Shown here piece after piece: positions 9,001-60,466 of a DNA stretch of 64,000 nucleotides. The translations under genes and the position numbers were made by a program. Under the pieces are notes generated by a model. That model was not told the DNA's origin. It saw only the letters and a program-made list of their open reading frames with translations, and searched no databases. Numbering within the stretch: the stretch's first letter is position 1; every line of letters begins with the position of its first letter. The DNA is from Daejeonella sp. (GTDB lineage: Bacteria > Bacteroidota > Bacteroidia > Sphingobacteriales > Sphingobacteriaceae), in contig NZ_JAUYSS010000009.1 in NCBI RefSeq assembly GCF_030695525.1, positions 62,001 through 126,000 of the forward strand, read 5' to 3'.

Positions 9001-9072
9001 GGTCCCGTAGTTCAACGGATAGAATAGAAGTTTCCTAAACTTTAGATGTGGGTTCGATTCCCGCCGGGACCA
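9001..9072 (+). tRNA. tRNA-Arg (anticodon CCT)
   Basis: All four arms can be paired. The acceptor is GGTCCCG with CGGGACC, the D arm GTTC with GAAT, the anticodon arm GAAGT with ACTTT enclosing loop TTCCTAA (anticodon CCT), and the T arm GTGGG with CCCGC enclosing TTCGATT. The CCA end is not encoded. Its 3' end, from within the T loop onward, is duplicated about 3.2 kb downstream, which marks it as an integration site. Confidence 0.95.
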
Positions 9073-9076
9073 CAAA
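9054..9076 (+). repeat. attL: 23-bp direct repeat in tRNA-Arg 3' end
   Basis: The 23 bases from the tRNA T loop through the acceptor end and four bases beyond recur exactly at 12248-12270. This is the standard footprint of a tyrosine-recombinase element inserted into a tRNA gene. The left copy completes the working tRNA. Confidence 0.85.
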
Positions 9077-10034
9077 AAACGCAGTTTTCACCTAATAGAG
9101 ATGTGTTTTTGGCTATGTGGGTCGCACTATAGGTAAAATGCGGATGACATGGTATACAACATGTCATATTGCGAAGGCACCGGATGGAAATATGATAGGC
9201 GCTTATTATTATGGTTAGTTTTGAAAGTTGAATAAATCATAAGCTGATAAATGCTCCGGGCCTTCAAGAAACGTAAGCTCACTTTATAGTTTTAATCATA
9301 AAAGCTAGTCAATAGATAAACGCCGTAAACTTAGTAGGTGAAGGACGAACGAGTTTAAATTAGCTTAAGATTCTATTGAACAAGTAAGACTCTAGTCCAC
9401 CGATCTCCCACGGGGATGACCGGAAGATTGGTCGAGAGACAAAGTCGCCGGAAAACGCTTAAAATTGCTCCGTGATCAGTCTGTGATGATATGGCAGTTG
9501 AAAAGCGCCATTGAATATCCAATGGATGAAAATGAATTATAAGTGCCTCGTACGTAATTTTCGTCACCAATTCCACTTTTTTAACTTCCTTCGATCACTT
9601 ATCTACATTTCCAGGACAATTGAAGCTAACGTAAAATCATAAATATGAATATTTCTGAGGTTGTACCTATAAGCAGTTATTTTGTTCACAAGCTGAGTTC
9701 CAAATTTATTCTGGAAACGGAGCTTCTTCCTTCAAAAAAAGTGACTTTGAGCACGAAGTGCTCCTCCTCTAAATGTGCTTCTTAAACAAGAAGATAATCT
9801 ACTCTTTTTATCTCTACTCTCTTTAACTATGGGGGCCGAAATCGAGCCTACCCCCTAGTTCGAATCTCGGCTTGACAACCTAGGCTCGGCTTGACAACCT
9901 AGGCTCGTTAGTGAGCCATACCTTCATCAAACTTTCACCTTACTAACATCTTGAAGTATTATAACAAATTTTTTCTAACTGATAATCAATCAGTTGTAAA
10001 TTACTATACGAGTTTTGGCTATTAGTGCCATTTC
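9077..10034. other. Long non-coding left arm of the integrated element
   Basis: No supportable gene. It contains a tandem 19-bp repeat (listed separately), a small hairpin GGCTC/GAGCC just after it, and an inverted repeat AACTGAT/ATCAGTT at 9977-9995 about 40 bases before the HTH gene, which could be that gene's operator. A 67-residue minus-strand frame at 9373-9576 has no recognisable homology. Confidence 0.5.
9866..9903 (+). repeat. Two tandem 19-bp units
   Basis: CTCGGCTTGACAACCTAGG occurs twice head to tail, followed by the start of a third copy (CTCG). Each unit ends in the palindrome CCTAGG. It lies in the non-coding arm of the integrated element; its function is unknown. Confidence 0.8.
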
Positions 10035-10520
10035 ATGGGAGTTATGAAAAGTAAGCGTCACATCGCCACAAAAAAAATGAGAAAATTTGGAAATGACTTC
10101 CTAGGCCCTCAAAACTTAGACCCGAAATTCCTTGCTAACTATGCGCTCTTCGCAGGACGTAAGGCCACTTTTATGTCTTTGAAACCGATTCTTGAAGACA
10201 ACGAACTAAGTGTCCATGCGAGACTCTTATTTCAAATAATTAGCTCTCTTTCACCAAAAAAAGGATACTGCTTTGCTTCTAATGATTTCCTTGGTCAGAA
10301 AATGGGTGTTACGATTAGTAGTATCAAACGTTATTTGTCAGAACTCCGGAAAGCGAAACTGATCAGATCTGAGATGGTACCGAATGCTATGGGCTCACAT
10401 AGACACATCTACATTGACTTTTACAGCCTGCGTCGTCGATACATCGACAGTTTGTCAAATAAGTATGAGCCGAAGTCATGGGACCCGCAAACTAAAAGCT
10501 ACAGAAAACGTGAGGAATAG
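10035..10520 (+). CDS. HTH-domain protein of the integrated element
   Basis: A 161-residue basic protein. The central part (about 55-115: LSVHARLLFQIISSLSPKKG, then a helix-turn-helix ending VTISSIKRYLSELRKAKLI) resembles the HTH_36-type winged helix of plasmid replication initiators and mobile-element regulators. The tail is rich in Arg and Lys. A second ATG four codons downstream is an equally good start. It lies 69 bases upstream of the integrase remnant, in the same direction. Its role could be replication or regulation of the former element; sequence alone does not decide. An inverted repeat about 40 bases upstream may be an autoregulatory site. Confidence 0.65.
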   Translation: MGVMKSKRHIATKKMRKFGNDFLGPQNLDPKFLANYALFAGRKATFMSLKPILEDNELSVHARLLFQIISSLSPKKGYCFASNDFLGQKMGVTISSIKRYLSELRKAKLIRSEMVPNAMGSHRHIYIDFYSLRRRYIDSLSNKYEPKSWDPQTKSYRKREE

Positions 10521-10589
10521 AAAATAGTTGTTTTAAAAATTTTAGAATCCAAAAAGACGATTGGAAATTCGAGTAAAAAATATAAAGAA

Positions 10590-10862
10590 ATGAGACTTAC
10601 ATATAGCATCAAAACAGTACTACGTCAGGACAAGAAAAAGGCTGACAACTTAATCCCAATTTATTACTCTGTAAGAGTTGGTCCACACGCTTCGAGACTT
10701 CCTACTGGGAAATACACTCTTCTCAAAGATTGGAATGTAAAAGATAATTGCCCAAAAAGTAATACAAAAGAGAACCAACTGTTAGGTACATATTTGCAAC
10801 AACAGTTGGCTAAATGGCAGATTTTCATGCTAGAATTCGGAATCGTCCCAGAGATCTCGTAA
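10590..10862 (+). pseudogene. Truncated tyrosine recombinase (arm-binding domain only)
   Basis: About 85 residues remain, beginning MRLTYSIKTVLRQDKKKADN. They match the N-terminal arm DNA-binding domain of Bacteroidota tyrosine recombinases, including the pattern of a strand, a PIYYSVRVG strand and a W-V-containing turn (DWNVKDN). The SAM-like core-binding domain and the catalytic domain with its R-H-R-Y residues are absent. The frame stops shortly after the sequence switches to ATPase-coding DNA in another frame, so a deletion fused two unrelated genes. It is the only recombinase trace in the element. Confidence 0.7.
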
Positions 10863-11374
10863 AATTATGCACAAAAGCAGCTGAAGAGGCTTACCGGACC
10901 AAATCAACAACAATAAGTACCGAACATATCGAAGCAATTCTACCGGCATATTCTAAAAGCATAATGGAGGATACAATCGGCGAGTACATCTCTGAATTAC
11001 CAGCGATCTCAAAGCTCTTGTATGGTATGAGGCCCACGAAGAAAGAGAGAACAACCGAGGATGGATACAGGTACACAACTACTGAACTGCATAGTAAACT
11101 GCATCAAATCATGATAAATAATACTTTCAACTTCGCTTCAGCGAGTCCTGTAGACCCCAAAAGCTTGAAAGATTTCTTGTATAAAATCAACTTTATTACG
11201 GCTCGAAAGACTTTGCCAGATGGTGCGATTATTCGAAGTAGTTATGAAGAGAATCAGAAGTTATCACTTGCTTACATGAATGAAGGTTATGAATGGGAAG
11301 TGCATTTAGCTTATAGGTGGGAATTGCAGGCTGATTCATTAGATGATATTTTCAACAAAATTTCCATCAATTAA
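10814..11374 (+). pseudogene. C-terminal fragment of a P-loop ATPase (Sll1717-like)
   Basis: The 186-residue frame lacks a Walker A or B motif. From NRPRDLVKLCTKAAEEA onward it resembles the C-terminal part of the P-loop ATPases of the Sll1717 type: the RPRD motif, a helical region, a small domain LKDFLYKINFITARK, and a final W-x-VHLAYRWELQ that corresponds to the family's HPAFR ending. The first ten or so codons (MADFHARI) are integrase DNA read in another frame, so this is a 5'-truncated gene joined at a deletion point near position 10835. It ends 13 bases before the next gene's start. Family placement is by memory of the motif order and is moderately sure. Confidence 0.55.
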
Positions 11375-11387
11375 CTTTGAAAAAGTA

Positions 11388-12065
11388 ATGAGGCCCATTG
11401 AATTCACTGTCTACATAATTATTTTAATTTCAATTGTTGGATGTCATATCTCTAGAGCCCAGCACATTGATTCCCTTCGATCACAACGCAGGGAAATAAG
11501 CAGGGTTGATACCTTCCTGCTAGTTAAAAATGGTATTGTTAGTGACACAACGAAAACCACTTTAGCTGATTGGGAGAGGAAGATGCCTTGGATAGCAGTT
11601 CTCGTAATAGGAGTATTAGCATTTTTGGCAAATATTGTATCGAGTATTAATTTGCGGCGTACCAGTCTTGAGACTACTAAACAGCAAATCGAATTATCCC
11701 GAAAAAACAGTGAACGTGATTTTAATAAAACAGTACTTTCAGGTAATAGACAGATATGGATAACTCAATTTCGCTCACTCATGAGCGAGATTATTACCCT
11801 TCTTTCATTTTTCGTTACCAAGCAGGGTCTAAACAATGAAGATTACTCCAAGCTTCAGCTTTTGGTTACACAAGCAGAATTGATGTTGACCGACTCTACG
11901 GACGAGCGCTTTACAGAGATTCTAATAAATGCCAAAGTTTATTGTTTTGAGTTACTCAAGACGAATTGCCAAGCTGAAGAATTGGAGTTACATATTAAGG
12001 CTGTAAAAACCGCTACCATATCAAAACTAAACACTGAGTGGGATAAAGTCAGGAGCGGCAAATAA
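11388..12065 (+). CDS. Predicted membrane protein of the integrated element
   Basis: A 225-residue protein with an N-terminal hydrophobic segment (FTVYIIILISIVGCHIS) and a second one at roughly 65-85 (IAVLVIGVLAFLANIV). A coiled-coil-like stretch (ETTKQQIELSRKNSERDFN) follows, then a soluble region beginning RQIWITQFRSLMSEI. That layout, two helices then a coil and a N-R-Q-x-W-I block, is shared by many accessory Bacteroidota membrane proteins found beside ATPases. I start at MRPIEFTV, which lies 13 bases after the ATPase stop with an A-rich leader; a longer frame overlaps the ATPase gene. It may have acted with the now truncated ATPase. No function can be assigned. Confidence 0.55.
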   Translation: MRPIEFTVYIIILISIVGCHISRAQHIDSLRSQRREISRVDTFLLVKNGIVSDTTKTTLADWERKMPWIAVLVIGVLAFLANIVSSINLRRTSLETTKQQIELSRKNSERDFNKTVLSGNRQIWITQFRSLMSEIITLLSFFVTKQGLNNEDYSKLQLLVTQAELMLTDSTDERFTEILINAKVYCFELLKTNCQAEELELHIKAVKTATISKLNTEWDKVRSGK

Positions 12066-12247
12066 ATATTTCTGGCTATTGAAATATCAAATATCTTAAA
12101 GCACGGGACACGCGTGGCACTACCATAGATTTATTAAGGTATAATGATTGGGTCACAAAATGGGTAAAACGTGAATGACCTCTAGCACTCTCAAATGCAC
12201 TTAATTGAACCCCAAAGACATGTAAAGAAATGCCATAAGCATGAAAA

Positions 12248-12270
12248 TCGATTCCCGCCGGGACCACAAA
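12248..12270 (+). repeat. attR: duplicated tRNA-Arg 3' end
   Basis: An exact second copy of the 23 bases spanning the tRNA-Arg T loop to just past its 3' end. It marks the right junction of the integrated element; no tRNA is formed here. Confidence 0.85.
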
Positions 12271-12345
12271 TAAACTCAGCAATTCAATTTTCTTGAAGGC
12301 GTTTCATTTAATACCATTGACGCCCATTTCCTAAATTTTTAGTTT

Positions 12346-13146
12346 ACAGCGAGTTCGATGTAAAATCTTGTGGGACTAATTAGATTCACTGATTTTCTAT
12401 TGTTTTAGAAAGCAAGGTCTGTGATTCTTCGGTCGCGAATTCCCGTGTTCTGCACTTGCTAGCGCAAGCGCAATGTCATTATTTAAGCATTCAAGTTTTC
12501 TGTTTGGTACCGTTTTGCCCATTTGCCCTGTAGAGGCCACATGTTATAATAGATTAGCCGACCCCGTAGGTAGTCGCATGTTTATAGAAAGACCATACAA
12601 ACCGATTAGCGACCCCGTAGGTGGTCGTATGTGTACCATTACCACATTCGACCACCTTCCTTTAGATTTCGTTGAAAATTGTTCTATAAACATGTGACCC
12701 ATTCTAGGTTATCTATAAATATTCGGCCTTCTTCTGGGTCGACAGAGAAAATTTCGAATTGAAAGGACAATCGGCAGAGTTGAACTTAACCTTAAATAAT
12801 GACATTGCGCGCGCACCAGCAGCGCCGAGCTGCCCTTCCCAATGAAAAACAGCCCCGGGTAAAATAAACCTTGCCGGAGGAGGTAGCTTCCGGCTATTCG
12901 CCTGTGGTCGGTGTTATCACCGACCAATGATATTATCGTGCTTGGTACGGTGAGAACACCGACCACAGGGAAATTTGAAACAGAACGCGATTTCTTGCCG
13001 GAAATACTCCGGAGGAAAGGGCTGAACCGGCCCATAACACACAGGTATTGATTTCCAAAATCAAATCATTGTGGTTCAAGAGCCTTATCTGACCAATTAT
13101 AACCGTATTTGTTGCTCTTCCTTATATCGTCGACCTCAGGTTAATT
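12346..13146 (+). repeat. MITE-like repeat, copy A (interrupted)
   Basis: This 0.8-kb non-coding stretch shares ordered blocks with 18541-18899: TAAAATCTTG near the left end, TTTTAGAAAGCA, GGTCTGTG, ATTCCCGTGTTCTGC, a block of about 70 bases around CTTGCCGGAGGAGGTA, AGAACGCGAT, and a right end CTTATATCG...CAGGTTAATT. The left end carries GAGTTCGATGTAA, related to the right end in inverted orientation. Copy A is longer because a second palindromic element and other sequence were inserted. Short frames inside it are not credible genes. Confidence 0.7.
12468..12810. repeat. Nested element with perfect 20-bp terminal inverted repeats
   Basis: GCGCAATGTCATTATTTAAG at 12468-12487 is repeated as its exact reverse complement at 12791-12810. 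Inside are two similar hairpin units (CGACCCCGTAGGT followed by GTCG and ATG). The 343-bp unit sits where the shorter copy B has unrelated sequence, so it looks like an insertion into copy A. Confidence 0.7.
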
Positions 13147-13338
13147 AAAAAAAATGACCTCCACCTCCCATTTTCGGTCTTTTAGTCTGATTTTAGAATA
13201 GTTTAATCTAAGGGTACTCCCTAAACTTAAAATCAACTAAATAGAACATCACATTTTACAGCATACTGTCTTTGTAAGTTCACACACCCAACCATTCTGT
13301 CATTATTCTGTAATACGTCAAACTTATTTTTTAAAATG

Positions 13339-13359
13339 ATAGTATTACTATTATGTTTG
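13339..13359 (+). promoter_or_regulatory. TetR operator overlapping the export-cassette promoter
   Basis: The perfect 13-bp palindrome ATAGTATTACTAT is followed at once by TATGTTTG, a Bacteroidota -7 box, 19 bases before the TetR start. A repressor bound here would cover the promoter. The identical palindrome occurs in the control region of the paralogous TetR gene near 41.75 kb. Confidence 0.7.
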
Positions 13360-13377
13360 CATGTAAAATATTCAAAA

Positions 13378-14058
13378 ATGAAAACATTACTTCAAAATAT
13401 TAGACCCGAGATCCAGGAAGGCATCTTTCTGAAGAATCCCGAAAGTTCAGCTTTGGGCAAAAGCATTGTTAAAGAAGGTGTTTTACTGATAGATGAAATT
13501 GGTTTTGAATCCTTTACTTTTAAGAAACTAGGAGAAAGAATTCAAACCAACGAAAGTTCTGTCTACAGGTATTTCGAGAATAAACATAAATTCCTGCTTT
13601 ATATTTCCTCGTGGTACTGGAGTTGGATGGAATGTCGTCTTGTTTTTGAAACTGCAAATTTAGTGGATGCAAATGACCAGCTTATGAAGGCCGTTTTACT
13701 GGTAACAGAGGATACAGCCGATGATATATCAAGTGATTATATTGATGAATCCGTTTTAAAAAGGATAATAATATCAGATTTTACTAAAACATTTTTGACC
13801 AAGGAAGTAGATGATGAAAACCGTGAGGGTTTTTTTAAGATATACAAACGTGTAATTTATAGAATTGCCGCTATAATAAAGGAAGTAAACCCGGCTTATG
13901 CCTACCCTGAGAGTCTTGCAAGTAATATAGTAGAAGGTTCCATGCATCAGCATTTTTTAAAGCAGCATCTTAAAACAATTACTAACTGTAATGAATCGGT
14001 ATCGCCTGCTGATTTTTATTTAAATATGGTAAACAGCATTGTAATCAAGTCCTCATGA
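13378..14058 (+). CDS. TetR-family regulator of the export cassette
   Basis: A 226-residue repressor-type protein. The N-terminal helix-turn-helix is clear: FESFTFKKLGERIQTNESSVYRYFENKHKFLLYI. The remaining helical ligand-binding domain matches the second TetR protein of this window over its length, including the W-Y-W-S-W motif after the HTH. I start at MKTLLQNIRPEI; a longer frame would begin inside the operator. It overlaps the downstream ABC gene by ATGA, so the cassette of regulator, ABC, HlyD and TolC is one operon and probably self-regulated through the palindrome just upstream. The inducer is unknown. Confidence 0.88.
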   Translation: MKTLLQNIRPEIQEGIFLKNPESSALGKSIVKEGVLLIDEIGFESFTFKKLGERIQTNESSVYRYFENKHKFLLYISSWYWSWMECRLVFETANLVDANDQLMKAVLLVTEDTADDISSDYIDESVLKRIIISDFTKTFLTKEVDDENREGFFKIYKRVIYRIAAIIKEVNPAYAYPESLASNIVEGSMHQHFLKQHLKTITNCNESVSPADFYLNMVNSIVIKSS

Positions 14059-15728
14059 CACCTTTAAAACGCTTCTATAACTTACTAAAGCTGGATAAAA
14101 AAGATGTTTACCAGATTATAATTTACGCTGCTTTTTCCGGACTAATCAGCCTTTCACTGCCATTGGGGATTCAGGCGATTGTAAATTTTATCCAGGGTGG
14201 GCAGATTAGCGTTTCATGGAAAGTGCTTATTCTAATAGTAACTATGGGTGTTGCTTTGGTTGGTATTCTGACACTTATGCAATTACGAATTACAGAAAAC
14301 CTTCAGCAAAAGATATTTATCCGTTCATCTTTTGAGTTTGCATATCGCTTGCCGAAGATTTCCTTTAATGCACTATATGATGAATACCCCCCTGAAATTG
14401 CGAACCGGTTTTTCGACACACTTGCAATTCAAAAAGGCACGTCCAAATTATTGCTTGACTTTACAACGGCTCTTTTACAGGTAGGATTAGGACTCATCTT
14501 GCTTTCTCTTTATCACCCTTTTTTCATACTATTTGGGATAGTGTTGTTGATTATGCTTTATGTCATTTTCAAATTTTCCTTTAATAAAGGTTTATATACC
14601 AGTTTGAAGGAATCCAGCTATAAATACAAGGTAGTTTACTGGCTGCAGGAAATTGCGCGTAATAAAAGCAGTTTTATTAAAAAAAATAATTTTGACTATG
14701 CTTTAAATAAGAATGATCTATTGGTAAATAACTATCTGCATTATCGTGAAAAACATTTTAATGTAATTCAAACACAATTTTCCCAACTAATAATTTATAA
14801 GGTATTAATTACAGCCGGACTTTTATTAGTGGGTGGTTATTTAGTTTTGGACCAAAAAATGAATATCGGTCAGTTTGTAGCTGCCGAGATTATCATCTTA
14901 TTAATCATCAATTCTGTTGAAAAGCTGATAGTTGGCTTGGAAACTTTGTATGATGTTCTCACAGCTGTCGAGAAGATTGGCTTGGTTACTGATCTGGAAA
15001 TTTATGAAAGTATTAAAAAGCCTGACTCTGATTCACCTGAAACTCATTTAACCATAGAAACTGTTGATATGAGCTATAGATTTCCTGATGATGACAAGGA
15101 TACAATTAAAAATATCAACCTTAAAATTACTCCTGGTGAAAAGGTCTTTATTGCAGGAACAAATAATTCAGGAAAAACAACACTTGTTAGATTACTTTCT
15201 GGATATCTATCCCCCACATCTGGTATTATATATGTTAACGAAAGTGTAATGAAAAAATCAGAAAGTGGCTATTATAAAAATTTTACCGGGCTTGTAATGC
15301 AGGATGATACACTTTTTGAAGGTACTTTAATAGAAAATCTGATATTTAATAACCCTAAAGTTAGTAGTGAGGATGTAAGATGGGCTTTAGAAGCGGTGGG
15401 GTTAACAGTTATAGTTAAAAGGCTTCCCAATGGGCTGGATACGACAATAAATTCTGATGGCAGGCACTTAACAAGATCTGTGATTCAGAAAATTCTAATT
15501 GCAAGAGCTATAATTTGCCGACCCAAAGTCCTGTTTCTTGAAGAACCAACAATTAGCATGGATCCTAAATCTGCGAGACAAATAATTGACTTTCTTGTTA
15601 GTCCGGAAAATGATTGGACAATAATTGTGTCATCAATTGATGAATACTGGAAAAAGGCATGTAACAGAGAAATTGATATGAATACTGGAGAAATTGTCAG
15701 GGATATAAAAACAATTGGTAATGCTTAA
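14055..15728 (+). CDS. ABC exporter, membrane and ATPase domains fused
   Basis: A 557-residue half-transporter resembling the inner-membrane component of type I secretion or peptide/drug efflux systems. Residues 15-300 hold five or six hydrophobic helices (for example IIYAAFSGLISLSLPLGI and VLITAGLLLVGGYLVL); no C39 peptidase domain precedes them. The ATPase domain has Walker A AGTNNSGKTT near 367. The other motifs are degenerate: LTRSV replaces LSGGQ near 471, FLEEP replaces LDEP near 492, and the H-loop His is lacking (VSSID near 523). Relatives in Bacteroidota show similar decay as far as I recall. Start and stop overlap both neighbours, so translation is coupled with TetR and HlyD. Confidence 0.87.
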   Translation: MTPLKRFYNLLKLDKKDVYQIIIYAAFSGLISLSLPLGIQAIVNFIQGGQISVSWKVLILIVTMGVALVGILTLMQLRITENLQQKIFIRSSFEFAYRLPKISFNALYDEYPPEIANRFFDTLAIQKGTSKLLLDFTTALLQVGLGLILLSLYHPFFILFGIVLLIMLYVIFKFSFNKGLYTSLKESSYKYKVVYWLQEIARNKSSFIKKNNFDYALNKNDLLVNNYLHYREKHFNVIQTQFSQLIIYKVLITAGLLLVGGYLVLDQKMNIGQFVAAEIIILLIINSVEKLIVGLETLYDVLTAVEKIGLVTDLEIYESIKKPDSDSPETHLTIETVDMSYRFPDDDKDTIKNINLKITPGEKVFIAGTNNSGKTTLVRLLSGYLSPTSGIIYVNESVMKKSESGYYKNFTGLVMQDDTLFEGTLIENLIFNNPKVSSEDVRWALEAVGLTVIVKRLPNGLDTTINSDGRHLTRSVIQKILIARAIICRPKVLFLEEPTISMDPKSARQIIDFLVSPENDWTIIVSSIDEYWKKACNREIDMNTGEIVRDIKTIGNA

Positions 15729-17088
15729 TATATCAAATAACAACCCGGTAAAAATGGATGATGGAACCGGATATGAGACCATCAGGATACTTAACAACAG
15801 ACCACATTACAAAATTCTAAATAGGATAATTTGGTTTATTTGCCTGATAAATTTAATTGGGCTGTTTTTACCCTGGACACAAAATATAAGAGGAACTGGT
15901 TCTGTGACAACACTGAAGCCCGACCAGCGCCCACAAACGATCCATTCGGCAATCGCAGGAAGAGTTGAAAAATGGTTTGTTAAAGAAGGTGACTTTGTGA
16001 AGAAGGGAGATACCATTGCATTCATATCTGAAATAAAAGAAGAATATTTTGATCCAAATCTAGTGGGAAACACAATGCAGCAGGTAAATGCAAAAAAGAT
16101 GGCGCTTGAATCATATGATGATAAAGTTATTGCATTAGAAAGCCAGATGGCATCTTTGAGCATGGAACTTAGCCTTAAGCTTGAGCAGGGAATGAATAAA
16201 ATACAACAGGCTTTTTTGAAAGTGAAAAGTGACAGTATGGATCTCGTAGCAGTGCATACACAATTGACTGTTGCCCAAACCCAATTCAGCAGGGCTGAGA
16301 CACTTAATCGCGACGGGCTGAAACCATTAAGTGATGTAGAGGAAAAAAGACTTAAACTTCAGGAGTCACAGGCCAAAATTATTACCCAGCAGAATAAATT
16401 GCTGGCTTCAAAAAATGAATTAATCAATTTACGGGTAGAAATAAATCGAATTAAAGCGGAGTATAGCGAGAAAATATCAAAAGCCAACAGCGATAAATTT
16501 ACTGCCAAAAGCAGCCTTTATGATACCGAAGCGCAGGTTACAAAACTTGAAAATCAGTATGTAAATTATAGCATACGTAATGGCCTGTATCACATCAGGG
16601 CACCTCAAAGCGGTATTGTAAATAAGACATTGCTTAGCGGTATCGGAGAAACAATTAAAGAAGGAACGGCACTTGTTAGCATAATGCCTGCCAAATATGA
16701 TATTGCTGTGGAAACATATGTAAATCCTATTGACCTTCCCTTAATACAAAAAGACTCCAGAATTAGGGTATGGTTTGACGGATGGCCCACAATTATCTTC
16801 TCCGGATGGCCGGGAATGTCATATGGAACTTTTGGGGGTAATGTAGTCGCAATAGAAAACTTTATCAGTCCGAATGGCAAATACAGAATTTTGGTTTCAC
16901 CGGATAAAGATGAGGAGCCATGGCCAAAAGAATTAAGTATTGGAGCGGGTGCTCAAACAATAGCTCTGTTAGAAAATGTACCCATTTGGTATGAGATATG
17001 GCGGAACCTCAATGGTTTCCCCCCAAATTACTATACATCTCAAGCATCTGGTAAAACAGGATCAAATAATAAGGATGAAAAGAAATAA
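15721..17088 (+). CDS. HlyD-family membrane fusion protein
   Basis: Periplasmic adaptor linking the ABC exporter to the outer-membrane TolC protein; 455 residues. One transmembrane helix lies near residues 38-55 (IIWFICLINLIGLFLPW). It is followed by a lipoyl-like half (IHSAIAGRVEKWFVKEGDFV), a long coiled-coil hairpin (about 110-270), the second lipoyl half (IRAPQSGIVNKTLLSGIGE), and a beta-barrel region. The ATG chosen overlaps the ABC stop codon by eight bases; a TTG two codons upstream is less likely. It ends three bases before the TolC gene. The order ABC-HlyD-TolC is that of a complete tripartite exporter. Confidence 0.9.
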   Translation: MLNISNNNPVKMDDGTGYETIRILNNRPHYKILNRIIWFICLINLIGLFLPWTQNIRGTGSVTTLKPDQRPQTIHSAIAGRVEKWFVKEGDFVKKGDTIAFISEIKEEYFDPNLVGNTMQQVNAKKMALESYDDKVIALESQMASLSMELSLKLEQGMNKIQQAFLKVKSDSMDLVAVHTQLTVAQTQFSRAETLNRDGLKPLSDVEEKRLKLQESQAKIITQQNKLLASKNELINLRVEINRIKAEYSEKISKANSDKFTAKSSLYDTEAQVTKLENQYVNYSIRNGLYHIRAPQSGIVNKTLLSGIGETIKEGTALVSIMPAKYDIAVETYVNPIDLPLIQKDSRIRVWFDGWPTIIFSGWPGMSYGTFGGNVVAIENFISPNGKYRILVSPDKDEEPWPKELSIGAGAQTIALLENVPIWYEIWRNLNGFPPNYYTSQASGKTGSNNKDEKK

Positions 17089-17091
17089 GCT

Positions 17092-18486
17092 ATGAAACTA
17101 ATTTATAGGCTTTTTATTGTCTTTGCTTTAATAAATGTTCCTGCTTTTGCTCAGGAGTTTAATCAGGAAGTACTGAGTTTCAGGGAATATTTGGGTTATG
17201 TAAAAAAATATCATCCGCTTGTTAGCCGTGCAAACATAGAATTAGACAAAGCCCAGGCAGCTTTAATGCAGGCAAGGGGTGGATTTGACCCTAAAATTGA
17301 GTTAGATTTTGACAATAAGCAATTTCAGGGTACTCAATACTACTCTATTTTAAACAGCAGTTTTAAAATACCAACCTGGTATGGTATAGAGGTAAAGGCA
17401 GCATTTGATGATGCTGAAGGCATATATTTAAATCCTCAAAATTTAGCACCCAATCAGGGAGTAACTTCACTTGGTGTAAGTGTTCCTCTGGCACAGGGTC
17501 TGTTCATTAACCAACGAATCGCAGATCTTAGAAAAGCCAAATTACAGATTCAATTAAGTGAATCGCAGCGGCGTTTGTTCAGTCTGGAAGTTTTGTACAA
17601 TGCATCAATTGCTTATTTTTCCTGGTTAAAACATTTTAATGAAGTTGAAATGTATAGGGAATACCTGTATTATTCTCAGGATCGCTATAATGGGGTGCTA
17701 AAACTAATAAAGCAGGGTGATAAACCGGCGATTGACAGTGTTGAGACGGGTATTGCTGTAAAAAATCGCCAACTGAATTTAGAAAATGCAATACTCAAAT
17801 TAAACAAAGCAAGGCTTGAACTTGCCAATTACCTATGGATAAACGAAACCCCGGTTGAGCCTTCGGAAAATCTTAAACCTGAACTAAACCTCACAGCCAG
17901 CATAGAAGGGATCTTAAGTACAGGAGACTTATATGATACTCAGGATATTATTGCAGACCATCCTAAACTGAAAATGATGGAGACTAAAATTAATATGCTT
18001 GATGTTGAAAGAAAACTAAAAGCCAATTATTTACTTCCTAAAATTGACTTGGGCTATTATTACTTTTCTGAACCTTTGGATTTTCACTCTCTAAGGAATG
18101 ATGATTACAAAGTGGGGATAAACTTTTCATTCCCAATATTTCTTCGTGTGGAAAGAGGGTCACTAAATTTAGCGAAGCTTAAATTGAGGGAAACGAGATT
18201 TGAACTTCAACAGGAAAGACTACAGATCAAAAATAAGATTGATGCACAACTAGTTGAGAAAACATCATTTAAAAAACAGGCCGGCTTGGTAGGTAATCTG
18301 GTAAAGGATTATCAAAAGATGCTGGAAGCAGAGGAACGCCTTTTTTCGTTTGGAGAGAGTTCAATTTTTATTCTCAACTCCCGTGAAAACAGTCTGATTT
18401 CTGCAAAAATTCAGCAGATTGATTTGGAAAATAGTTATCTGGTTAGTAATGCAGATTTATTCAGGATATTGGCTACAGAAAACTAA
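17092..18486 (+). CDS. TolC-family outer-membrane efflux protein
   Basis: A 464-residue outer-membrane channel protein and last gene of the export cassette. The signal peptide ends near PAFAQ at about residue 21. The TolC pattern follows: paired long helices (SRANIELDKAQAALMQARGG) and a beta-strand region (GFDPKIELDFDN). The repeat in the second half reads HPKLKMMETKINMLDVERKL. The final helices carry the usual LFSFGESSIFILNSREN stretch. It is separated from hlyD by three bases. The substrate of the assembled pump is unknown. A copy of the MITE-like repeat follows about 55 bases downstream. Confidence 0.9.
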   Translation: MKLIYRLFIVFALINVPAFAQEFNQEVLSFREYLGYVKKYHPLVSRANIELDKAQAALMQARGGFDPKIELDFDNKQFQGTQYYSILNSSFKIPTWYGIEVKAAFDDAEGIYLNPQNLAPNQGVTSLGVSVPLAQGLFINQRIADLRKAKLQIQLSESQRRLFSLEVLYNASIAYFSWLKHFNEVEMYREYLYYSQDRYNGVLKLIKQGDKPAIDSVETGIAVKNRQLNLENAILKLNKARLELANYLWINETPVEPSENLKPELNLTASIEGILSTGDLYDTQDIIADHPKLKMMETKINMLDVERKLKANYLLPKIDLGYYYFSEPLDFHSLRNDDYKVGINFSFPIFLRVERGSLNLAKLKLRETRFELQQERLQIKNKIDAQLVEKTSFKKQAGLVGNLVKDYQKMLEAEERLFSFGESSIFILNSRENSLISAKIQQIDLENSYLVSNADLFRILATEN

Positions 18487-18540
18487 GGTGGAATGATCTG
18501 AGATCGGGCAGCATAAAATTTAGAATTAAAAGATTTTAAT

Positions 18541-18899
18541 TTAACCTGACTTCCATATAAAATCTTGCCGCGCTGTTTTGATTGAATAATTTTATCTATT
18601 TTAGAAAGCAGGGTCTGTGCCTCTTAGGTCCTGCTATTCCCGTGTTCTGCCCTAGTTTTTGCCCATAAATTGCTTTTTGAGATAAAGTTTCGCCCGGGCA
18701 AAAAGCTAGAACTGTCACCCGGGTTTAATTACACGGGCAGTGGATCTTTTGCCGGGCTGCCCTTCCCGATGAAATACAGCACCGGGTAAAATAATCCTTG
18801 CCGGAGGAGGTATCTTCCGGCTATTCGTTTTTGATATAGAACGCGATTGGATAATTATAAGCCTGGCTTTTAACCTTCCTTATATCGAACTCAGGTTAA
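18541..18899 (+). repeat. MITE-like repeat, copy B
   Basis: A 359-bp non-coding element whose first 20 bases, TTAACCTGACTTCCATATAA, and last 20 bases, TTATATCGAACTCAGGTTAA, are inverted repeats matching at 18 of 20 positions. Inside are hairpins (for example TTTTTGCCC pairing with GGGCAAAAA, and GCCGGA with TTCCGGC) and the blocks shared with copy A. It is in the same orientation as copy A, and the two bracket the TetR-ABC-HlyD-TolC genes. No coding capacity is evident. Confidence 0.75.
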
Positions 18900-19064
18900 T
18901 TTAATTATTTTTAGGCTGTTTTTTAATCAGTACTTAGGAAGAAAATAAAAGTCTAAATGTTTTTTGGATGTATCAGCTTTAAATTTTTGAAACCTTTCGT
19001 TATTGGACTAAAATTTCTAATCAAACACAAAAAAATCAGAATAATCTTCGTTTCTTTATCTATC
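18900..19064. other. Spacer upstream of NIPSNAP gene
   Basis: A short AT-rich spacer between repeat copy B and the next gene. A frame open through it would lengthen the NIPSNAP protein but would put a hydrophobic and basic stretch before a good signal peptide, so I treat it as untranslated. Confidence 0.4.
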
Positions 19065-19811
19065 ATGAAAAAATTATTAATCATCTGCCTTCTTCTGGTT
19101 TCACAACTAAGTTTTGCAAAAAAAGCTGACAAGCGCTATTTTGAATTAAGAGTATACTATTGCAATCCGGGTAAACTGGATGCTTTAATTGACAGATTCA
19201 GGGATCATGCGGTACCCCTGTTTAAAAAACATGGAATTGACGGACTTGGATACTGGGTCCCAACCAATAATCCGGATAATGCATTCTATTATCTGATGGC
19301 CTATCCAAGTAAAGAAGCTAGGGATGCATCCTGGAAAGAGTTTGGAAAAGATCCGCAATGGCTGGAAGCTGCAAAAAAATCAGAAGAAAATGGAAAACTT
19401 ATTGCAAGAGCAAATATTTATTTTCTAAAGGGTACAGATTATTCACCTAAAATTAAAGCTTCCAGGGGCTCAGCAATGCGCACCTTTGAAATGCGTATCT
19501 ATACCGCAATGCCTGAAAAGCTCCAGAATCTTGAAAACAGATTCAGGGATCATACCATGAAGATCTTTAAGAACAATGGTATGCAGAATGTTGCATATTT
19601 TACAACCATAGAAAAGGATCCTGCTGATCAGGCTAAACTTCTATATTTCCTGGCTTATCCGGATGAAGCAGCTGGTAAGTTAGCATGGCAAAATTTCCGT
19701 AAAGATCCCGAATGGATAAAGGCAAGTACGGCATCTGAAGTAAACGGTAAACTGGTAGAAAAGGTCGAATCCGTTTATATGAAACCTATGGACTTCTCGA
19801 AGTTGAAATAA
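19065..19811 (+). CDS. Secreted NIPSNAP-family protein, two domains
   Basis: A 248-residue protein with a signal peptide (MKKLLIICLLLVSQLSFAKK) and two tandem NIPSNAP domains of the ferredoxin-like dimeric alpha-beta barrel type. The first begins YFELRVYYCNPGKLDAL near residue 25 and the second begins TFEMRIYTAMPEKLQNL near residue 140. The two repeats share the RFRDH and WxxFxKDPxW motifs. In Bacteroidota such proteins often accompany sugar or aromatic catabolism, but no biochemical role is established. It stands alone, with a strong bidirectional terminator behind it. I chose the ATG at the signal peptide over a longer frame. Confidence 0.85.
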   Translation: MKKLLIICLLLVSQLSFAKKADKRYFELRVYYCNPGKLDALIDRFRDHAVPLFKKHGIDGLGYWVPTNNPDNAFYYLMAYPSKEARDASWKEFGKDPQWLEAAKKSEENGKLIARANIYFLKGTDYSPKIKASRGSAMRTFEMRIYTAMPEKLQNLENRFRDHTMKIFKNNGMQNVAYFTTIEKDPADQAKLLYFLAYPDEAAGKLAWQNFRKDPEWIKASTASEVNGKLVEKVESVYMKPMDFSKLK

Positions 19812-49844: not shown

Positions 49845-50148
49845 TGAACAAGGAACAAAGATTGAGCCAAGAGCCAGGATTGCGGTTCTTGGTTGAATTG
49901 TCTGTTTTCGGGATATTACTTTAACATGAACTCAACCTAATATTTTAAAAACCACATAGAAACATAGCATTTTATAGCTTCTAACATAGATTTTAAACAC
50001 AGATAGCCTTGAAGCTTCGCTTCAATATATATGATTTACAATCTATGTTTCCTTTAAAGCTTCATATAAGTCAATCTATGTGGTTAAATATTAATCTTTA
50101 GTATTTATATATCGAACTCACTTTACTTTAATCTTTGATCCTTGTTCA
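49845..50148. repeat. Nested palindromic element (outer and inner inverted repeats)
   Basis: The outer ends TGAACAAGGAACAAAGATT and AATCTTTGATCCTTGTTCA are inverted repeats matching at 18 of 19 positions. Inside (about 49915-50128) is a second element with ends related to CTTTAACATGAACTC and CGAACTCACTTTACT, and a palindromic core ACCACATAGA ... TCTATGTGGT. The inner element is the same family as the one at 59891-60003, in the opposite orientation. It fills the space between thiE and the TPK-like gene and holds no gene. Confidence 0.7.
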
Positions 50149-59799: not shown

Positions 59800-60466
59800 G
59801 ATCTCTTTGATTCATAAATATTATACTGATATCCTGGAATTTTCCGGACTATTTTTGTTTCCAGGGAAGGAATGACCCCGACGAGAAAAATTATTATATA
59901 ACGAGAGTTCGATATATAAATTTTTAACCACATAGATTGACTTATATAATGCTATGTTTCTATGTGGTTTCAAATATTATGTCGAGTTCACGTTATATTA
60001 TAAAAAGTGGTCGACATATACGCCATGATGACAAATCAAATTTAATAATACAGGAGAATCCGCCTCGGGGTCCGGAATCGCAATGGAAATAAGGCCTGCC
60101 CAAAATACAATTTTTCCTATTAGTGATTAAGTAAAACCTTATTGATTGTCATGGCGGGCTTGATCCGCCATAAACCCGGGAGAAATGGAAAGCCCCGGCA
60201 AGCAATGATTTAATCTTATGCTGAATTTTATGCCGGGCTTGCAATGGATCACGGGACTAGCGGCCGCCAAAGGCAGTACCATTCATTTTCAAATCAAAAA
60301 AGCAGGAATTTTCTGAGCTATTGATCAAAACCAGAACATAGTTTAAACAAATAGCCCATCAGTCTAATCAATAAAACTAAACTACCTAACATCCATCAAT
60401 TCGGCTTTCAATTAACAGCATCTTTACAAGCAAATCCTAAATTAAGGGAGCTACTTAATTCCTAAC
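59800..60466. other. Non-coding region with dispersed palindromic repeats
   Basis: No gene of substance. It contains the palindromic element at 59891-60003, a TGGCGG/CCGCCA hairpin at 60152-60170 and GC-rich stretches (60170-60260) resembling dispersed repeats of other Bacteroidota. It lies between converging genes (amidohydrolase and ssb) and probably hosts their terminators. Confidence 0.6.
59891..60003. repeat. Palindromic element with inner and outer inverted repeats
   Basis: The ends TTATTATATAACGAGAGTTC and, inverted, TTATAATATAACGTGAACTC match over most of their length. The core has AACCACATAGA and TCTATGTGGTT as an inner inverted repeat. It shares core and ends with the element inside 49845-50148, where the sequence is longer. 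It is about 113 bp and non-coding. Confidence 0.75.

Follow-up and report, generated by a model that had tools for sequence, protein, structure and literature searches.

The locus

Across the 64,000 nucleotides of Daejeonella sp. DNA analysed here (the window), a stretch between a tRNA-Arg gene and a NIPSNAP gene holds a four-gene exporter operon – encoding TetR, ABC, HlyD and TolC proteins – that sits between two repeats, referred to below as copies A and B. The family to which both copies belong is called M1, and the genome itself is a 4.2-Mb assembly. The features discussed are the following:

9001-9073, + strand: tRNA-Arg(CCT), an attachment site for integrative elements and the left edge of the variable interval (missing in the relative G019)
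12249-12268, + strand: second, att-like copy of the tRNA-Arg 3′ end; in the relative G011, an element is followed by a 55-bp copy of this tRNA end
12347-13141, + strand: repeat copy A, an M1 element with nested repeats
12457-12821, strand not given: repeat within copy A whose terminal inverted repeats are 31 bp long
12896-12974, strand not given: short hairpin repeat inside copy A
13378-14058, + strand: TetR-family regulator (PF00440)
14055-15728, + strand: ABC transporter, membrane domain and ATPase (PF00005)
15715-17088, + strand: HlyD-type membrane fusion protein
17092-18486, + strand: TolC-type outer membrane protein (PF02321)
18537-18543, + strand: target-site duplication TAATTTA to the left of copy B (7 of 7)
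18544-18896, + strand: repeat copy B, a solo M1 MITE with IS982-type terminal inverted repeats
18638-18722, + strand: internal M1 hairpin with compensatory changes across copies
18897-18903, + strand: target-site duplication TAATTTA to the right of copy B
19068-19811, + strand: NIPSNAP gene, the right edge of the variable interval

Two copies of one repeat

With their ends refined from the sequence and from comparisons with empty sites, copies A and B measure 795 and 353 bp, respectively. They are non-coding, share one orientation and resemble each other block by block, the common blocks including, in order, 77 nt at 92% identity, 32 nt at 88%, 35 nt at 74%, 20 nt at 90%, 19 nt at 89% and 18 nt at 94%. 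This likeness is not due to chance, since copy B, used as a query against its own genome, recovers copy A at E = 1.6e-25; alignment and search together thus confirm the initial annotation, which had described two same-direction non-coding repeats with ordered common blocks on either side of the exporter genes. The match is confined to ordered blocks, and copy A is the longer, because two other repeats, each with counterparts elsewhere in the genome, are nested within it. The one at 12457-12821 carries 31-bp terminal inverted repeats (TGCTAGCGCAAGCGCAATGTCATTATTTAAG) and recurs as fragments, while the one at about 12896-12974 is a short hairpin repeat that many M1 copies carry at this internal position and that copy B lacks. 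The ends (GGTGTTATCACCACAGGTGTTCGGAAGA) of a degraded DDE_Tnp_1 insertion sequence that adjoins an M1 copy elsewhere (L200, G000:C58:12249-12794) resemble this short hairpin repeat.

Copy B carries terminal inverted repeats, as had been claimed, and is flanked on both sides by a perfect 7-bp duplication, TAATTTA; it was therefore inserted alone. Target-site duplication is less clear for copy A, whose outer flanks (TAGTTTA and TAATTAA) agree at only 5 of 7 positions. As the left flank of copy A and the right flank of copy B are alike at 6 of 7, the flank sequence, taken alone, would also be compatible with a composite event.

A genus-level MITE family

Searches of the genome returned 58 matches to copy B and 113 to copy A, which cluster into about 55 separate places. 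The terminal inverted repeat of the family (ACNTGAGTTCGATATAA), searched as a pattern with up to three mismatches allowed, gave 41 hits in the same genome, compared with none for a reversed control. All but one of the 43 copies tested (42/43) lie outside open reading frames of 120 aa or more, even as 81% of their flanks consists of such frames. Dozens of intergenic copies were one of two observations that the initial annotation had held to be at odds with its own reading of the locus; the other – conservation of the cassette at this position in all relatives – does not hold, the site being variable, albeit for reasons unrelated to the repeats.

The M1 consensus, 456 bp long, contains no transposase gene and has stops in all six frames, which rules out a protein-coding origin. 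Among known RNA families, tRNA alone reached threshold in the window. M1 was found in 11 of the 20 genomes of the genus; of 24 other genera in the same family, one yielded a mere trace of it. M1 is, then, a genus-level MITE family and a common small non-coding transposable element in this Daejeonella genome. Another repeat, matching a 206-bp MITE that lies beside the cassette in L091 and L092, is represented in the window by additional copies or fragments at 49921-50120 and at about 59923-60000.

Mobility and a probable link to IS982

Comparison of occupied with empty sites between this genome and its relatives G009 and G019 gives ends of the form ACCTGAGTTCGATAT... and 7-bp duplications, namely TAATATA for the related 206-bp element (at C10:8368) and TATCTTA for an M1 copy missing from the genome under study. 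Flanks matching at 6-7 of 7 positions accompany 31% of the extracted copies, as against 7% in mismatched controls, with several of the extracted ends miscalled. M1 insertions are polymorphic between sister species, and this, along with the terminal inverted repeats and the 7-bp target duplication, bears out the description of the repeats as MITE-like.

Ends beginning with AC, combined with a 7-bp duplication, suggest IS982 as the driver. A search with NF033520 found IS982 transposase genes in two other Daejeonella genomes, G007 and G004 (E = 1e-72 and 1e-71), where they are enclosed by the ends ACGTGAGTTCGGGTTAAG and ACCTGAGTTCGATTAAT in elements of 1044 and 1004 bp; in the inverted ends of both elements, the first 11 to 13 bases are the same as in M1. 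The same search found no IS982 gene in the genome under study, and the driver is either absent from it or unassembled there. M1 and the 206-bp element, which has the same ends, may on this sequence evidence be read as IS982-type MITEs, and we infer that M1 was moved in trans by an IS982 transposase. Two other drivers were considered and rejected: an IS1380 element, suggested by TTAA ends, has no counterpart in the genome (PF13701 gave no match), and the empty sites show a 7-bp duplication and ends that start with AC; for a DDE_Tnp_1 transposase (PF01609) there are two hits in the genome, neither of them with M1 ends; one of the two, at C58:12249, is the differently ended element beside an M1 copy mentioned above.

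The gap between tRNA-Arg and NIPSNAP in relatives

The 3′ end of the tRNA-Arg gene recurs in att-like form at 12249 in the window and as a 55-bp copy in G011, so this tRNA serves as a landing site for integrative elements. The segment between the tRNA and its att-like copy (9074-12268) is interpreted as the decayed remains of an integrative element; it contains an HTH_36 gene and a fragment of an Arm-DNA-bind_5 integrase.

In G019, the order metG–tRNA-Arg is followed directly by the NIPSNAP gene, and a segment of about 10 kb (9078-19029 in the window) is wholly absent, including the cassette and both repeats; the MetG and NIPSNAP proteins are 95% identical to those encoded here. G009 has the operon at the same place, beside a truncated copy A and the 206-bp MITE, without copy B; the junction there falls short of a clean pre-insertion site. 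G017, a more distant relative, carries LysR, icd, sbtA and other genes to the left of TetR, and a partial copy B with the 206-bp MITE after the operon. Given the unclean junction in the former and the partial copy in the latter, the difference in copy B may be a gain or a loss. G011 has the start of icd joined to the tail of TolC, with copy B and then NIPSNAP after it, and in G010 the ABC gene is truncated, its break joined to the NIPSNAP side. The genes that precede the operon in G017 (L092:837-8203) encode LysR, isocitrate dehydrogenase, Sua5-like, dihydroorotase-like and SbtA-like bicarbonate transporter proteins, and LysR and the icd start are common to G017 and G011.

The breakpoints in the four relatives that miss the cassette or the repeats thus fall at tRNA-Arg/NIPSNAP, at icd/TolC and inside the ABC gene. 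None of the breakpoints is an A/B junction, and no single hybrid repeat occurs in any of the four. The hot spot is the gap between tRNA-Arg and NIPSNAP, where integrative elements also land; the repeats do not bound the variable region.

The ABC gene of the operon is present once in the genome, and the same four-gene operon is found in Flavobacterium (ABC 58-79% identical in full-length Flavobacterium hits), where it lacks the NIPSNAP gene and the other neighbours seen at the present locus, which makes the operon a unit of its own. It has likely been exchanged between the Daejeonella and Flavobacterium groups, to judge from identity only.

Mobile unit, recombination or coincidence

The initial annotation had seen in this arrangement a composite mobile unit or a region prone to excision by recombination between the copies, and neither proposal fares well. 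For the operon to have moved as one unit, an IS982 transposase would have to use the outer ends of A and B, which do offer inverted repeats of the same family on both sides and outermost 7-mers that nearly agree. Such a unit would carry a target duplication at its outermost ends only, yet copy B has a perfect duplication of its own; nor do the outer repeat ends delimit where the cargo is present or missing, as the operon or its remnant is bordered by other sequence in G009, G011, G017 and G010, and the empty site in G019 has the tRNA and the NIPSNAP gene as its limits. With a single ABC gene in the genome and a Flavobacterium operon devoid of this neighbourhood also against it, we consider a composite transposon extremely improbable. 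Homologous recombination between the copies would draw on their direct orientation and on the 77-bp block; however, the common blocks are short and diverged, the breakpoints of loss are unrelated to A and B, and the hybrid repeat that such an event would leave behind is missing from the cassette-less relatives examined, so that excision by this route is highly unlikely.

What M1 does show are the hallmarks of an IS982-type MITE: terminal inverted repeats, target-site duplication, multiple dispersed copies and no transposase gene. Copies A and B are, in all probability, independent MITE insertions that lie by chance on either side of the operon in a hypervariable gap, rather than the ends of a mobile unit. 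They would represent two separate insertions of one non-autonomous family that happened to land on both sides of the exporter operon, presumably carried there in trans by IS982 transposases that sister species still possess; the gap would gain and lose DNA through integrative elements at the tRNA and through ordinary deletions, and not through exchange between A and B. Overall, the MITE family is ordinary, the spot that it surrounds is variable, and the finding is largely unremarkable.

An internal hairpin

M1 contains an 86-nt internal hairpin, located at 18638-18722 in copy B and present in 38 other copies, whose stem is kept through compensatory changes. Over 33 distinct copies, 96.5% of cells are paired and six pairs have changed on both sides, and covariation reaches 0.170, where shuffles give 0.061 and slid versions no more than 0.038. 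Convergent genes flank 18 of 38 copies and divergent ones three of 38; kinship among the copies inflates the counts. Copy B also folds better than its shuffles (z -4.2). A similar hairpin with a different loop is seen in another genus (L137:1440-1521).

Pairing, fold and orientation bias fit selection on structure, but they also fit quasi-palindrome correction, which can mimic compensatory change, and loss of insertions near promoters; insertion away from promoters can yield the same bias. That M1 carries an internal structured segment under selection – e.g. a terminator or RNA that an IS982-type MITE disseminates – is a doubtful, if conceivable, proposition. A related reading, in which the repeats are retained for a role at gene ends, as terminators or structured RNA, with their MITE-like spread secondary, would draw on the maintained pairing, the fold of copy B and the convergent-gene bias; it has also to contend with copies that are polymorphic between close species and in many cases degraded, and with a family that was not detected in 9 of the 20 genus genomes and barely at all beyond them, and we think it unlikely.

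Comparison with known systems

Two mobile repeats on either side of a gene set are by themselves no evidence of a composite element, as illustrated here by sister genomes that place the breakpoints elsewhere. The locus resembles composite transposons in having two similar mobile repeats around genes, and differs from them in that each tested insertion is independent and no mobilisation of the outer ends is seen. Beyond this, the analysis describes a Daejeonella MITE family whose ends match those of IS982 elements in the genus, and identifies the gap between tRNA-Arg and NIPSNAP as variable; were the hairpin functional, M1 would also exemplify the spread of a structured RNA element by a transposable element.

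A literature search on MITEs in Sphingobacteriaceae returned nothing relevant, and the one close precedent found is MITECca01, a MITE from the Cardinium endosymbiont cOegib; its ends are of the IS982 type, and its parent, ISCca4, belongs to the IS982 family (PMC9769881). M1 differs from MITECca01 in being longer (consensus 456 bp compared with about 240 bp; PMC9769881) and modular, with nested repeats and internal hairpins, in belonging to a non-endosymbiont genus and in having no parent insertion sequence found in its own genome. Compared with the IS982-family elements of the genus (G007:C78 and G004:C21), M1 has no transposase gene and an unrelated interior, while the terminal inverted repeats (ACNTGAGTTCG...) are the same and the target is similarly short and AT-rich, with TAAATA repeated beside the G007 element. 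Like MITECca01 (PMC9769881), M1 is a short, transposase-less element of the Bacteroidota with IS982-like terminal repeats and many copies.
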